From NCBI RefSeq assembly GCF_020164595.1, contig NZ_JAIQZE010000011.1, positions 1 through 64,000 of the forward strand: a stretch of 64,000 nt of DNA, read 5' to 3'. Positions 50,080 to 58,249 of the stretch are shown here, in pieces. Under the pieces are notes generated by a model. It was given only the letters and a program-made list of their open reading frames with translations. It was not told where the DNA came from and searched no databases. Every line of letters starts with the position of its first letter. Within the stretch, counting starts at the first letter, position 1. This DNA is from Psychroflexus longus (GTDB lineage Bacteria; Bacteroidota; Bacteroidia; Flavobacteriales; Flavobacteriaceae). The position numbers and the translations under genes were made by a program.

Positions 50080-50114
50080 AAAACTCTCTATCAAAAGATA
50101 GGGAGTTTTTTTAT
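50080..50114. terminator. Terminator after peroxiredoxin
   Basis: Arms AAACTCTCTATC and GATAGGGAGTTTT (one G-U pair) with AAAA loop and a T run. It lies between convergent genes. Confidence 0.82.
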
Positions 50115-50671
50115 TCAATCAAGTTTCCCTCCTTATCTATATGAATGCCCTTGTATAAACGATCGTAGGTGTAGGATTCCCAAAAATAAGTTTCTTCAAC
50201 TGCATTAAAAATTCTGGAAATTTTCTCCTCAAATCGTTCCAAAATGAAATTGTCATCATTTCCCATGACGACGCGTTCAAAATTATTTTCTTTAGTAAAT
50301 GCAGTCAATGGAATACCAATAAAATAGCGGTTGCTCGATAGATAGAACGCTCCGTTCTTTAATTCACCTGAAAAGGTTTTTTTAAAAACGAATCCTTCAC
50401 TTTCGTAGCTGAGTTGTAAAGTCTCATCATCAATAAATTTTAAGTTGACGAAAGTGATGGACAGTGGTATTTTGATATCAAAAAATTCGTCAATTCCTTT
50501 AAGAGATGCAGACATGGAAGGACTGTCGTAGGAGTTGATCAGGTAGTAGCCCTCCATAAGACTCAGTTGACCCTCATAGATTTTCACAGATTCCTCAGGA
50601 AGTTTTCGGGATCCGCAAGATTGAAGTAAAACCAAAGTGGTAAAAAAAAGGAGGTATTTGATGATTTTCAT
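50111..50671 (-). CDS. Small lipoprotein, function unknown
   Basis: The ATG at 50671 gives a lipoprotein signal (MKIIKYLLFFTTLVLLQSC, lipobox LQSC) and 186 residues; a longer frame from 50722 adds an N-terminal stretch that masks the signal. The mature part is mixed beta with KIYEGQLSLMEGYYLINSYD, YESEGFVFKKTFSGELKNGA and an aromatic C-terminal end (WESYTYDRLYKGIHID). No family is recognised. Its coding is well supported by the signal peptide and open length. Convergent with peroxiredoxin and divergent from the ATP-grasp gene. Confidence 0.75.
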   Translation of the reverse strand: MKIIKYLLFFTTLVLLQSCGSRKLPEESVKIYEGQLSLMEGYYLINSYDSPSMSASLKGIDEFFDIKIPLSITFVNLKFIDDETLQLSYESEGFVFKKTFSGELKNGAFYLSSNRYFIGIPLTAFTKENNFERVVMGNDDNFILERFEEKISRIFNAVEETYFWESYTYDRLYKGIHIDKEGNLIE

Positions 50672-50774
50672 TGAATGAATAGTTTTGACCAAATTATGAT
50701 AATATGAAAAGAATTGCGTCAAAATCTTCCTTATTTATTTTTTTGCAAGAATAATTTTGAATTTAATTTTAAGC

Positions 50775-50782
50775 TACATTTG
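50775..50782 (+). promoter_or_regulatory. -7 promoter element of the amidoligase cassette
   Basis: TACATTTG matches TANNTTTG, 20 nt before the ATP-grasp ATG. A TTTG at 50756-50759 lies 15 nt upstream, somewhat short for a -33. Confidence 0.5.
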
Positions 50783-50802: not shown

Positions 50803-52263
50803 ATGAACAAACTTATTGTGGTTAGCCAACCCGAAAAATGGCCTATAATAATGGATCATACGTCTATTATAACTTCACAAGATTATTTGACAAATCCCAA
50901 ATACGCAGAATTAAAAAATGTAAGGGTTTTCAATTTGAGTGACAAATACAATTACCAATCCAAAGGATACTATGTTTCCCTGCTGGCGGAAGCTCGCGGA
51001 CATACGTCTATTCCTAACATTAGTAACCTGGTAGATCTTGGAGAAAAAAAACTGGTCAAAATCGTTTCTGAAGATTTTGAGGAAGAAATTCAGAAGAGTT
51101 TGAAATTGATTAAGTCTCAGGAATTTACTTTAAGCATTTACTTCGGACAAAATGTCGCTCAGAAATACCGAGAATTAAGCAGCTTAATATTCAGACATTT
51201 TCAGATTCCATTTTTAAGAGTGATTTTTAAACATACCACAAAATGGAATATTAAGTCTATTAAAGCCATTTCCCTAACAGAAATTCCAACTGATCATTTG
51301 GAGAGTATGCATTATTTTGCTTCAGAATTTTTTTCTAAAAAAAGATACGATAGTCCAAAAGCGAATAAAGCTGAGTACGATTTGGCAATTTTGGTTCAAA
51401 ATAATGATCCTGCGCCACCAAGCAATCCAAAAGCCATTAAAAAATTTACAGACTTGGCTGAGAAAATGAATTTTTACGTTGAAATTATTTCACCTAAAGA
51501 TTTACACCGTCTTTCATCTTTTGATGCCTTGTTCATCAGACAAAGTACTGAAGTAAATAATGAAGCCTATGCTTTTGCTAGAAAAGCCCAGCAAGATGGT
51601 TTAGCGATTGTCGATTATCCTGATGCGATATTGAAATGTTGCAATAAAGTTTTTATGGCGGAAGCACTCCACAAGAATGGGGTTCCAACACCAAAAACCA
51701 TGATCATTCATAAAGACAATACACATGAAGTTTTAAAAGTTACAGGACTTCCATGTGTTCTAAAGTCTCCGGATTCTACCTTTTCTTTTGGAGTGAAAAA
51801 AGCAAAAACTAAAGAAGAATTTGAATCTCTCACTACCGAGATGTTTAAAACTTCCGATCTCATCATTGCCCAGGAGTTTACTTATTCTGAATATGACTGG
51901 AGAATAGGAATTTTAGATAACAAGCCCTTTTATGCGTGCCGTTATTTTATGGCCAAAGGACACTGGCAAATCTACAATTGGTCAGCCGACAAAAAAGATG
52001 ACCAAGATGGAAATGCAGATTGCTTTGCTGTAGAAGATGTTCCAGAACAAGTGATGAAGGCAGCCTTAAAATCAGCAAAAATAATGGGGAAAGGTTTGTA
52101 TGGGATTGATGTCAAAGTAGTCAATGGAAAGGCTTTGGTCATTGAAATTAATGACAATCCAAATATTGATTTTGGAGTGGAAGATGGGCTATACGGCGAT
52201 GCTGTTTACACTACTATTCTTCAGGCCTTTAAAAATCGCCTTAATTCTAAACAAGACTCATGA
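50803..52263 (+). CDS. RimK-type ATP-grasp ligase with N-terminal RLAN domain
   Basis: A 486-residue protein. Residues about 1-160 (MNKLIVVSQPEKWPII start, RVFNLSDKYNYQSKGYYVSL in the middle) match the RimK-like ATP-grasp N-terminal (RLAN) domain. A linker is followed by an ATP-grasp fold (about 280-480): NKVFMAEALHKNGVPTPKTM, the nucleotide lysine region PCVLKSPDSTFSFGVKK, IIAQEFTYSEYDWRIGIL and the Mg-binding EINDNPN (448-454). Such enzymes couple an acid to an amine with ATP to ADP, as RimK does with glutamate on S6; here the partners are unknown. It is the first of three genes joined by ATGA/GTGA overlaps. Confidence 0.85.
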   Translation: MNKLIVVSQPEKWPIIMDHTSIITSQDYLTNPKYAELKNVRVFNLSDKYNYQSKGYYVSLLAEARGHTSIPNISNLVDLGEKKLVKIVSEDFEEEIQKSLKLIKSQEFTLSIYFGQNVAQKYRELSSLIFRHFQIPFLRVIFKHTTKWNIKSIKAISLTEIPTDHLESMHYFASEFFSKKRYDSPKANKAEYDLAILVQNNDPAPPSNPKAIKKFTDLAEKMNFYVEIISPKDLHRLSSFDALFIRQSTEVNNEAYAFARKAQQDGLAIVDYPDAILKCCNKVFMAEALHKNGVPTPKTMIIHKDNTHEVLKVTGLPCVLKSPDSTFSFGVKKAKTKEEFESLTTEMFKTSDLIIAQEFTYSEYDWRIGILDNKPFYACRYFMAKGHWQIYNWSADKKDDQDGNADCFAVEDVPEQVMKAALKSAKIMGKGLYGIDVKVVNGKALVIEINDNPNIDFGVEDGLYGDAVYTTILQAFKNRLNSKQDS

Positions 52264-53483
52264 AATACCATCTTTTTGAAGTTTTCGGGATCGAATTAGA
52301 ATATATGCTCGTTAAGGCTATGACTGGCAAAGTTCATCCCTCTGTAGATAAATTGATGAAATTGAAAACTGGTGAAATTGTTTTAGATGTGGATAACGGT
52401 CCAATTGAATGGAGTAATGAACTTGCCGCTCATGTGGTTGAATTGAAAACCAACGGTCCTGCCAAAAGCCTGGATACTTTAGATATGAAATTTCACGAAA
52501 ACATCCTTGAAATAAATAATTTACTCAAAGGCGTTAATCTTCGCTTATGGCCAACAGCTTCACATCCATTGATGAATCCAGAATTGGAGATGAAATTATG
52601 GCAACATTCCTATAGCGAAGTCTATGCCCTTTACAACAGAATTTTTGATTGCAAAGGTCACGGTTGGTCCAATGTACAAAGTATGCACATCAATTTACCC
52701 TTTTGCGATGACTCCGAATTTGAAAAGTTACACGCTGCTATACGGATTTTACTACCTATTTTACCGGCATTGAGTGCAAGTTCACCAATTCTGGATGGTC
52801 AAACAACAGGTGATCTAGATTCCAGGATGAGGTTGTATTTAACCAATCAAAAGCAAATACCTGAAATGACAGGGAAAGTGATTCCTGAACAAGTGTTTAG
52901 CCAAAAAGAATATCAGGAAAAAATCTTCGACCCTATTAATTCTGCAATTGCTCCATTTGATAAGGACCAAATTTTAGAACATCATTTTTTAAATTCAAGA
53001 GGAGCTATTGCCAGGTTTGATAGAAACGCAATAGAGATTCGAGTTCTGGATATACAAGAATGCCCTCTGGCAGATGTTGCTATCGCTAGTTTTATTGTCG
53101 AAATTTTAAAGGATTTTGTAAATGAAACCTATTCAAATTTGAAGGATCAAAAATCATGGTATGAAGATATTCTTTTTGAAATTTTGAATCAAAGTATCGA
53201 ACATGCAGAAGAAGCTGTAATTCATAATAAATCCTATTTGAAACTTTTTGGAATTGAAGCTGAATCGATGGCTGTAAAAGATATTTATAAGCATTTATTT
53301 GAAAAGGTGTCCTCTAGATTGAATAAAAGACATTCTGAAGCTATTGAACAAATTTTAGTTCATGGTAGTTTGTCCACACGAATTCTAAAAGCAATAAATA
53401 ATGATTTTTCTGAAGTTAATATTCTGAAGGTTTATCAAAAGCTTGGAAATAGTCTATCCAAAAATGAATTATTCCTGCCGTGA
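52260..53483 (+). CDS. GCS2-type carboxylate-amine ligase (glutamate-cysteine ligase-like)
   Basis: A 407-residue protein of the glutamine-synthetase-like fold. The N-terminus FEVFGIELEYMLV carries the acidic strand that binds metal. ELAAHVVELKTNGPAKSL (about residues 57-74) and a central SMHINLPFCDD follow, matching the conserved GCS2 substrate and metal strands. The last third carries RFDRNAIEIRVLDIQECPLA. Members join the gamma-carboxylate of Glu (or another acid) to an amine using ATP. The product is unknown here. ATGA overlap with the ATP-grasp gene suggests tight co-expression. Confidence 0.83.
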   Translation: MKYHLFEVFGIELEYMLVKAMTGKVHPSVDKLMKLKTGEIVLDVDNGPIEWSNELAAHVVELKTNGPAKSLDTLDMKFHENILEINNLLKGVNLRLWPTASHPLMNPELEMKLWQHSYSEVYALYNRIFDCKGHGWSNVQSMHINLPFCDDSEFEKLHAAIRILLPILPALSASSPILDGQTTGDLDSRMRLYLTNQKQIPEMTGKVIPEQVFSQKEYQEKIFDPINSAIAPFDKDQILEHHFLNSRGAIARFDRNAIEIRVLDIQECPLADVAIASFIVEILKDFVNETYSNLKDQKSWYEDILFEILNQSIEHAEEAVIHNKSYLKLFGIEAESMAVKDIYKHLFEKVSSRLNKRHSEAIEQILVHGSLSTRILKAINNDFSEVNILKVYQKLGNSLSKNELFLP

Positions 53484-54160
53484 AATTAATACTGACTTGT
53501 GAGCATGCGAGTAATTTGTTGCCGAAACAATACGAATATTTATTTATAGACCATAAAAACCGATTGGAAACGCATGAAGGTTATGATGTAGGTGCTTTTG
53601 AAGTTTATGAATCTCTACAGCATATAGCTGATTATTCTTTACATTACCAATGGAGCAGGCTTTTGATAGAAGTTAACAGGTCTTTGCATCATCCCAAATT
53701 ATTTTCAAGCATCTCACAAAATCTTGATAAAGCAGAAAAAAACCGCTTAATTATCGACTATTATCAAGCTTATCGGTATCAAATTCAGAAGAAAATAGAA
53801 GAAAGCCTCATCAAAGGTGAATGCGTACTTCATCTATCTATTCACACTTTTACACCAATTTTGAACGGAAACGTTCGCGAAGCGGATCTTGGTATTTTAT
53901 ACGATCCAAGACGAAAAGCTGATAAAGACTTTGCAAACAAATTTCGAAAAAAAATGAGCTTACAAATGCCTGAATTCAGAATTAGAATGAATTACCCCTA
54001 CAAGGGAAAATCTGATGGATTTACGACGAGTCTAAGAAAGATATTCCCCAATAATTATACAGGAATTGAGCTGGAAATTAATCAAAGCCACACTAAAGAT
54101 TCTATTAAAATAGCTAAGATTAATGCAGATTTTCAAAAGTGTTTGAGAAAACTACTTTAG
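53480..54160 (+). CDS. N-formylglutamate amidohydrolase-like protein
   Basis: A 226-residue protein starting at GTG in a GTGA overlap with the previous gene. The family motifs are LTCEHASNLLP (residues 4-14, catalytic Glu and His), HEGYDVGAFEVYESL, the basic WSRLLIEVNRSLHHP loop, LHLSIHTFTP with a His, and ELEINQS near the end. Canonical members hydrolyse N-formyl-glutamate in histidine breakdown. No hut gene is nearby, so a hydrolase on a product or a protected intermediate of the two ligases encoded upstream is more plausible. That is inference. Confidence 0.82.
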   Translation: MKLILTCEHASNLLPKQYEYLFIDHKNRLETHEGYDVGAFEVYESLQHIADYSLHYQWSRLLIEVNRSLHHPKLFSSISQNLDKAEKNRLIIDYYQAYRYQIQKKIEESLIKGECVLHLSIHTFTPILNGNVREADLGILYDPRRKADKDFANKFRKKMSLQMPEFRIRMNYPYKGKSDGFTTSLRKIFPNNYTGIELEINQSHTKDSIKIAKINADFQKCLRKLL

Positions 54161-54262: not shown

Positions 54263-54439
54263 ATGAATAAAAATACAGTTTTAGCGTGGGCAACCTTTAT
54301 TATGGTAATTGTAGGTTTAGGACTTATTGCTTTAGGCGCTTTTAGATATAATGAGATAGCCGGTTGGGGTTTTGCTTCTGTTGGTATCGGTTTTTTTGCA
54401 ATAGCTTGGGTGTTTAATGCCCTAAAAGGAAGAGTATAA
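54263..54439 (+). CDS. Small membrane protein of the CAL67264 type (58 aa)
   Basis: A 58-codon frame, MNKNTVLAWATFIMVIVGLG and so on, with two hydrophobic segments (about 6-27 and 36-52) separated by a polar FRYNEIAGW turn, and a basic end NALKGRV. It matches a small family named after a Gramella locus that I recall as widespread in Flavobacteriia. It lies 16 nt before ettA on the same strand, so a shared transcript is likely. Function unknown; an inner-membrane hairpin is the natural topology. Confidence 0.75.
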   Translation: MNKNTVLAWATFIMVIVGLGLIALGAFRYNEIAGWGFASVGIGFFAIAWVFNALKGRV

Positions 54440-56262: not shown

Positions 56263-56278
56263 CCAAAATTTGATAAAA

Positions 56279-58249
56279 ATGAATAAAATTATCTTTCTGG
56301 CTTTTGTACTGATCAGCCAGTTTATTTTTTCTCAAGATGTTATTATCAATGAAGTGGATTCAGACACAGATGGTGTTGATACAAAAGAGTTTATTGAGCT
56401 TAAAACGCTCTCTCCAAATACCACTCTTATTGGTTATGTACTTGTTTTATTTAATGGATCATCGTCTGGAGGGGATTCCAGCTATTTCGCATTGAATTTA
56501 GATAGTTTTACTACAGATTTTAATGGTTTGTTTGTTTTAGGCGGACCAGAACTCACACCGAGTCCTAACTATTTTTTACCTTCAAATTTCATTCAAAATG
56601 GCGCTGATGCAGTTGCTGTCTATAGAGGATCAGAACAAGATTTTCCGGAAGGAACTTTAGCTACAACAGACAATATAGTTGATGCTTTGGTTTATGGAAC
56701 TAGCGATCCAACTGATCAGAATCTTTTAAATCTTTTAGCTCAAAATGAACAAATTGATGAGGATTTAAACGGTAATAAGGATTCAGAATCGATGCAGCGA
56801 AATTCTGATGGAACTTGGTCTATAGGGCTTCCTACACCAAGAGAATTAAATGACGGTTCTGGAATACCTCCCGTGTTTATTGATATAACTTCAAGCAAAA
56901 CTTTAGTTGATGAAGGCGATAGTTTTGTCATTAATTTTTCAACATCAAAGCCTTTAGATGAAGATTTGATTATTAATTTTAGTTTAGCAAATGGAACCTT
57001 CACCGAGGATGATTACAATGGACCTAATTCCATCATCTTATCTGAAGGTACGAGCACAGGTTCTTTAACTATTGATATTGTAGACGACGAACTAGATGAA
57101 GGTGATGAATTTATCAATATTGAGATAGATGTAATTGGTGATCCATACATATTGAATTCTAATTTTATCCAGGTCATTGTTGTAGATAATGATTTTACTG
57201 TGGCTGATTGGGGAATTCCCACAAACCCGACCTTCGATAATGTCAATCCTACAGGACCAACAAATTATTTTGAAAGTTTAAATGGTAAATCTGGTAATGC
57301 TCTAAGAAAAGCAATACGAGATATTATTGCCGAAGAAGGTGTTGTTAAAATCCATACTTACTCAGACATTATAGATATTTTAAAATCAGCGGACCAAAGC
57401 CCAAGTAATAGTAATCAGGTTTGGTTGGCGTATCGAGAGGAATCACGGCCAAAATATTTATATCAATTAAGTTCTTCGGGAACTGGATTTTGGAACAGAG
57501 AACATGTGTTTCCAAGATCTCGAGGTAGTTTTTTCAGTATAGAAGAAGATGAAATTGCCACCGGGATCAATGAATGGTGGGAAACCAATGCAGACTCGTT
57601 GAGACACGCCAATTCTGATGCACATGGTTTGAGGGCAACAGATGCAAATGAAAACAGCTCCAGAGGAAATAAACATTTTGGAAGCATAAACAATATTGAT
57701 TCTTATGCTGGACCTTCTGGAACTCAAGGCAGTTTTAGAGGTGATGTGGCTAGAGCAGTTTTTTATCTTGCTATTCGATACAATGACCTTTTTGTGGTTA
57801 ATGGATTTCCAGATGTTACAGGCCAATTAGGAGATTTGGAAACACTTATGCAATGGCATACATATGATCCTGCAGATGATTTTGAGATGAACAGAAATAA
57901 TGTTGTTTACACTTGGCAAAATAATAGGAATCCTTTTATTGACTATCCAGAATTAGTGGATTATATATGGGGAGACCAGCAAGGTGAAACCTGGAACCAA
58001 TCACTTTCGATAAATCAAAATAAGTATCAAGATATATCTATTTATCCTAATCCAACTTCAACTTATATTCAATTTAAAGGTATAACTAACGCTGCGAATG
58101 TAGAATTTTACTCAATGACTGGGAAAAAAGTACTAGAAAAGCAAATATCTAACGGAACTCAATTATCTTTGAATCTAAATTCTGGTATGTATTTAGTTAG
58201 GATTGTATCTAATTCTAAAGTCACTACAAAAAAATTAATCATCAAATAA
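56279..58249 (+). CDS. Secreted endonuclease I (EndA/NucM) with Calx-beta and T9SS sorting domain
   Basis: The ATG 56279 is preferred over TTG 56270 because it begins the signal peptide cleanly (MNKIIFLAFVLISQFIFSQ). The 656-residue protein has four parts. A lamin-tail-like domain spans about 20-200 (INEVDSDTDGVDTKEFIELK). A Calx-beta domain spans about 200-305 (VDEGDSFVINFSTSKPL and acidic DDELDEGDEF). The EndA/NucM nuclease spans about 330-570 with the FWNREHVFPRSRG core and an HGLRATDANENSSRGNKHF segment. A C-terminal type IX sorting domain covers the last 70 residues (DISIYPNPTSTYIQF, GMYLVRIV). It likely degrades extracellular DNA. Confidence 0.9.
   Translation: MNKIIFLAFVLISQFIFSQDVIINEVDSDTDGVDTKEFIELKTLSPNTTLIGYVLVLFNGSSSGGDSSYFALNLDSFTTDFNGLFVLGGPELTPSPNYFLPSNFIQNGADAVAVYRGSEQDFPEGTLATTDNIVDALVYGTSDPTDQNLLNLLAQNEQIDEDLNGNKDSESMQRNSDGTWSIGLPTPRELNDGSGIPPVFIDITSSKTLVDEGDSFVINFSTSKPLDEDLIINFSLANGTFTEDDYNGPNSIILSEGTSTGSLTIDIVDDELDEGDEFINIEIDVIGDPYILNSNFIQVIVVDNDFTVADWGIPTNPTFDNVNPTGPTNYFESLNGKSGNALRKAIRDIIAEEGVVKIHTYSDIIDILKSADQSPSNSNQVWLAYREESRPKYLYQLSSSGTGFWNREHVFPRSRGSFFSIEEDEIATGINEWWETNADSLRHANSDAHGLRATDANENSSRGNKHFGSINNIDSYAGPSGTQGSFRGDVARAVFYLAIRYNDLFVVNGFPDVTGQLGDLETLMQWHTYDPADDFEMNRNNVVYTWQNNRNPFIDYPELVDYIWGDQQGETWNQSLSINQNKYQDISIYPNPTSTYIQFKGITNAANVEFYSMTGKKVLEKQISNGTQLSLNLNSGMYLVRIVSNSKVTTKKLIIK

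Follow-up and report, generated by a model that had tools for sequence, protein, structure and literature searches.

A three-gene cassette at positions 50803..54160 of the window, the whole 64,000-nucleotide stretch of the Psychroflexus longus contig that we analysed, encodes two predicted amide-forming ligases and a hydrolase, and its arrangement is not a product of chance but a real conserved unit. The RLAN family and its interpretation as a peptide ligase were already known, and the cassette is a widespread variant of an RLAN-type amidoligase system; what is new here is the strict linkage of the RLAN gene with a GCS2 gene, the optional nature of the C39 peptidase and of the N-formylglutamate amidohydrolase-like hydrolase (FGase), and the existence of a sister type that carries GNAT. 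We propose, with roughly even confidence for and against, that these genes form a self-contained operon whose product is a small glutamate-containing amide of non-ribosomal origin, either a gamma-glutamyl-capped di- or tripeptide or an amine conjugate. The features are as follows.

50803..52263, + strand: RLAN plus RimK-type ATP-grasp ligase, 486 aa (open reading frame and Pfam)
52260..53483, + strand: 407-aa carboxylate-amine ligase of the GCS2 fold, predicted to be a gamma-glutamyl ligase; overlaps the RLAN gene (ATGA)
53480..54160, + strand: 226-aa hydrolase of the FGase (N-formylglutamate amidohydrolase-like) kind; starts with GTG and overlaps the GCS2 gene (GTGA)
50775..50782, + strand: putative promoter-like element TANNTTTG (TACATTTG), read from the sequence; the ATG of the RLAN gene lies 20 bp further on

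The three genes, their ATGA and GTGA overlaps and the TANNTTTG element had all been named in a preliminary description of this DNA, and open reading frames, Pfam matches and the sequence itself bear them out. TANNTTTG is the name of the Bacteroidota-type motif; by eye, a match stands at about the same distance 5' of the RLAN gene in each of the five named Psychroflexus loci.

The first protein is an RLAN-RimK ATP-grasp protein, in which an RLAN domain (PF14401, E 5e-48, 162.9 bits against a Pfam cut-off of 25) is followed by a RimK-type ATP-grasp domain (PF08443, E 8e-9, 35.8 bits against 21). The second falls in the GCS2 fold superfamily by its Pfam match (PF04107, E 5e-24, above the curated cut-off), by its fold and by the GhExE signature, which PMC2588565 gives for that fold. 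The third matches the FGase family (PF05013, E 4.6e-19, 69.9 bits against 28.9); its profile recovers the Atu2144 structure 2odf (E 1.1e-33), and C7-E8-H9, H118, H122, E197 and E199 are invariant in nine aligned proteins. None of the three reaches the cut-off of any NCBIfam model (among the best 25 of 35 rows for the RLAN protein). The RLAN protein scores 67.3 bits against the 143.4 required for RimK (TIGR00768) and 35 against 331 for the S6 ligase, so that it does not class as a RimK S6:glutamate ligase; it also differs from RimK, LysX and ArgX in its extra N-terminal RLAN domain and in standing beside GCS2 or with GNAT in 43 of the 43 clear cases of the phylum sample. The GCS2 protein likewise lies outside the glutamate-cysteine ligase and YbdK models (best 54.5 and 54.1 bits against 371 and 176.4, the latter TIGR02050) and has 15% identity to YbdK and the plant glutamate-cysteine ligase. 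For the FGase protein no NCBIfam match appeared at E 0.1, with no HutG model checked by name, and no hut genes were found among those window neighbours given to Pfam.

Relatives of the GCS2 protein are encoded on at least 582 stretches in an alignment-based scan of species-representative genomes, of which one genome may hold more than one. We studied the best 80 of these stretches, chosen by GCS2 similarity, which consequently represent related lineages; the names that they bear are those of flavobacteria, mostly from marine or saline habitats. The closest named GCS2 among the listed matches is that of Psychroflexus lacisalsi (89% identity), whose locus has several flanking genes in common with the window. 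RLAN lies upstream of GCS2 in 80 of the 80 loci (in L049 it is cut by the contig end), and FGase lies downstream in 78, the exceptions being L057, without an FGase match, and L104, which stops at the contig end. With longest-ORF starts, RLAN and GCS2 are spaced by -11 to +4 bp in 73 of 79 loci, and the 4-bp overlap of GCS2 and FGase occurs in 49 of 77. When 79 loci were mapped from RLAN as anchor, omitting L049, FGase occupied position +2 in 77 of 78, and the outer neighbours varied (34 homology clusters at position -1, n=76; 30 at +3, n=78). The full occupancy of positions 0 and +1 (79/79 each) is partly by construction, since GCS2 served to choose the loci and RLAN to anchor them, and the independent evidence is therefore the neighbour counts in the 80 loci together with position +2.

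Evenly drawn samples of 295 genomes of the class and 395 of the phylum extend this linkage. RLAN was found in 19 class genomes, 17 of them strong; the weak matches in G049 and G118 were left out, no cassette genes being present in loci L036 and L037. Among the 17, GCS2 stands beside RLAN in 13, the window included, and three carry GNAT-RLAN fusions without GCS2. The phylum sample held RLAN in 44 of 395 genomes, one weak match with stops (G621) being dropped, and the GCS2 clade (E < 1e-80) in 30, every one of them RLAN-positive; a clear gap separates this clade from the next GCS2 matches (E 6.5e-7 and weaker), and the co-occurrence of RLAN and GCS2 over the 395 genomes has a Fisher p of 1e-34 with kinship ignored. 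The FGase clade (E < 1e-70) is present in 24 phylum genomes, 21 of them GCS2-positive and three without RLAN, matches in G394 (E 8e-6) and G424 (E 2e-4) being left out. Distances among the RLAN proteins run parallel to those among the GCS2 proteins (correlation r 0.82, n=39, 0 of 1000 permutations; L147, with split frames, omitted). The preliminary description had asked for conserved co-occurrence of the three domains and had allowed that the neighbours might not be conserved in related genomes; the counts of RLAN (80/80), FGase (78/80) and RLAN-positive GCS2 genomes (30/30) supply the former, and no such lack of conservation was seen among the three genes.

Two further components had been overlooked in that description. 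A papain-like C39 peptidase is encoded directly upstream of RLAN in 26 of the 30 GCS2-type phylum genomes, with Q9, C15, H175 and D193 invariant in 17 proteins, and the four C39-free genomes all belong to the window's family; one class genome outside the 30 (G068, locus L020) is of GCS2 type with neither C39 nor FGase. A C39 encoded elsewhere in the genome was considered, and genome-wide searches of the four C39-free members of the window's family, G000 (the window genome), G458, G485 and G644, gave no match (for G000 at E 0.001, with the C39 profile and without a genome-wide search for DUF3335), while the same profile search matched three other genomes. The other component is the GNAT sister type. 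The 43 strong RLAN genomes of the phylum divide into 30 with GCS2 and 13 with GNAT, none having both and none neither, GNAT being sought within the fetched loci by means of two queries taken from GNAT-RLAN fusions; in 12 of the 13 GNAT is fused, and one has a separate GNAT-C39 protein. A GNAT-C39 protein (DUF3335) adjoins RLAN in one Azospirillum, one Tistrella and G419 of the phylum sample, and the C39 domains of GNAT-fused and GCS2-type loci align (hhalign probability 86.6, E 4.5e-6). A DUF155 (RMND1/Sif2-type) gene lies directly upstream of C39 in L031, L032 and L033, three of the four loci labelled f16, and a second, shorter ATP-grasp similar to RLAN (296-325 aa) is encoded within the locus in four flavobacteria (L099, L110, L111, L114).

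From the gene content and order, the co-occurrence, the folds and the active-site-type residues we infer a chemistry, an order of steps and a product. The GCS2 protein, judged by fold and context, would couple glutamate through its gamma-carboxyl to an amine of a small molecule at the expense of ATP, and the RLAN-RimK protein, likewise with ATP, would attach another amino acid or amine at a free carboxyl of the intermediate, though the two steps could run in either order. FGase, again by fold and context, may cut an N-acyl or gamma-glutamyl bond and so finish or recycle the product; the C39 peptidase would act alongside in most other sampled lineages, the window's family lacking it, and GNAT in the sister type could perform an analogous capping of the amine with acyl-CoA. 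Among the few genes submitted to Pfam, an MFS exporter, a Na:alanine symporter and a methyltransferase each turned up a single time, which hints at a small molecule. More tentatively, and with clear doubt, the product may be an undescribed gamma-glutamyl metabolite that marine Bacteroidota commonly make. GCS2 and GNAT would then be unrelated, interchangeable means of capping the same kind of amine ahead of extension by a shared RLAN ligase, and the capped peptides, which might be compatible solutes, would make up a modular family spanning more than one phylum. A role in stress or as an osmolyte is a guess by analogy with the osmoprotectant NAGGN.

Several observations weigh against the proposed operon for a small glutamate-containing amide. 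The closest ATP-grasp relatives of the RLAN protein, RimK, LysX and ArgX, act on proteins. Nine of the 30 GCS2-type genomes lack FGase and three others (G356, G415, G615) have the FGase clade without RLAN, so that the FGase step is not obligatory; and in L022 (G251) of the class sample RLAN and FGase lie side by side with no GCS2 adjacent to RLAN, the rest of that genome not having been searched for GCS2. On a tree of 61 RLAN proteins, about three changes suffice for each label, GNAT or GCS2, and the argument from their exchange thus rests on few events, which tempers the exclusivity of the two as strong evidence; long end branches in the tree lead to L185, L190, L186 and L189. Finally, Legionella adelaidensis, of another phylum, has all three genes on a plasmid record of 9 kb (RLAN 43-51% and GCS2 38-46% identical to the others), and its source, cooling-tower water, is at odds with a purely marine osmolyte. 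In the two inspected loci with an orphan FGase, L193 (G356) and L195 (G615), a gene for a putative vitamin uptake transporter (Vut_1) stands near it.

In another reading, protein or peptide tagging, the RimK-type enzyme would add glutamate to the end or a side chain of a protein, GCS2 a second gamma-linked residue, and FGase, or C39 elsewhere, would remove the tag. We consider this unlikely, since the GCS2 protein is much nearer YbdK and plant glutamate-cysteine ligase than PafA/Dop, the genes beside the cassette include no carrier or tag ORF that recurs from family to family, and the cassette is absent from a genome of the same genus. The search for such a carrier or a precursor (3100 ORFs of 22-95 aa from 119 loci, within 1.5 kb, blastp E 1e-4) gave 280 ORF clusters, of which one, with two members, spans two family labels and was taken as chance; the 12 largest are all flavobacterial. 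It bears equally on a graspetide-like RiPP, in which the ligases would modify a ribosomal precursor: an ATP-grasp ligase does accompany a C39-like peptidase in other lineages, but no conserved adjacent precursor or cross-family small ORF was found within 1.5 kb at that sensitivity, which very short or fast-changing peptides could escape, and we regard a RiPP as highly improbable.

The domain pair also mirrors the logic of GshA and GshB, with plant glutamate-cysteine ligase among the top fold matches of GCS2 and glutathione synthetase among the matches of the ATP-grasp part in a structure search of residues 189-486 of the RLAN model. GCS2 might accordingly make gamma-Glu-Cys or similar, and the ATP-grasp enzyme complete a glutathione-like low-molecular-weight thiol. 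The preliminary description had listed a thiol or redox metabolite among the options on account of the neighbouring peroxiredoxin gene. We discarded that argument from context: peroxiredoxin lies within the fetched locus in only 4 of the 80 closest loci, all Psychroflexus, and the window genome encodes BshC, of the bacillithiol cysteine-adding family. Because of these two facts, and with GCS2 far under the NCBIfam glutamate-cysteine ligase cut-offs, a thiol seems quite improbable. That description's operon of two ligases and a hydrolase is borne out as a conserved unit; its redox hint is not supported.

We give equally little credence to salvage or detoxification, in which GCS2 would gamma-glutamylate an amine for processing and FGase or an EgtC-like enzyme remove the glutamate, as in the catabolism of gamma-glutamylated amines. 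A ligase and an amidase do share one operon, presence is patchy (RLAN in 44/395 genomes), locus L023 has an EgtC-like neighbour, and an aldehyde dehydrogenase, the next most recurrent cross-family neighbour, is encoded close to the core of 6 among 122 RLAN loci, these six bearing five family labels (L035, L107, L155, L156, L165, L171; one homology cluster). The latter genes stand, however, at scattered positions and on both strands, as does an SDR cluster in 5 of the 122, and a constant second ligase (RLAN, 30/30) exceeds what protection and release would need. The EgtC-like protein, of class-II amidotransferase fold (L023, 5306-6181), heads a C39-RLAN-GCS2-FGase operon; such a match occurred in 1 of 62 loci of one set and in 0 of the 80 closest loci. 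A counterpart elsewhere in the window genome was looked for, and a 23.6-bit GATase_4 match in a 617-aa frame, probably GlmS-like, was the only candidate.

Among known systems, the nearest is the RLAN/GNAT-papain amidoligase system to which we take PF14401 to belong. The RLAN-RimK protein is common to both and the C39 domains align, whereas that system has GNAT and the cassette has GCS2, usually with FGase, and in the window's family also lacks C39; no GNAT was found in the cassette or the neighbours given to Pfam. The asnO-ngg-peptidase operon for NAGGN, according to PMC8070244, combines N-capping and peptide bond formation with a peptidase, in which it resembles the cassette; it differs in its GNAT-type Ngg and AsnO, the cassette having neither GNAT nor asparagine synthase, and no Ngg model is among the 25 best NCBIfam rows of the RLAN protein. 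Ergothioneine synthesis offers a further likeness, a GCS2-type ligase (EgtA) and an EgtC-like amidase in one locus as in L023, but the few neighbours in L023 that were compared with Pfam include neither EgtB nor EgtD. Searches of the open full-text literature yielded no description of the RLAN-GCS2-FGase trio or of its product, in keeping with the preliminary description, which knew of no experimentally established product; the accessible parts of PMC12239564, PMC4431377, PMC11036162, PMC8070244, PMC2922099, PMC8939145 and PMC2588565 do not describe the trio. A widespread, tightly linked pathway without a product in the literature marks a gap in what is known of the metabolism of common ocean bacteria; with three genes the cassette is small enough to be tried in a laboratory host, for which the sister type with GNAT offers a natural comparison.

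RLAN occurs in 11 plasmid records, and GCS2 in one of them, that of Legionella adelaidensis; carriage by phages was considered, and a phage collection gave no RLAN match. The same-genus genome G165 has no RLAN, and the cassette is absent between its peroxiredoxin and EttA-side genes: in locus L201 (638-1751) the peroxiredoxin is followed by a small membrane-protein-like ORF and then by EttA. The window gene adjoining the cassette (50111-50722), lipoprotein-like by eye, has a counterpart in G165 with 67% DNA identity only, where no ORF of that length is among those listed. On the other side, a 58-codon ORF (54263-54439) between FGase and EttA belongs with EttA and not with the cassette, since a near-identical protein precedes EttA in the cassette-free G165. 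Further on, window 56270-58249 encodes a large secreted-looking protein that, by eye, contains a stretch resembling endonuclease I and ends in a sorting tail.
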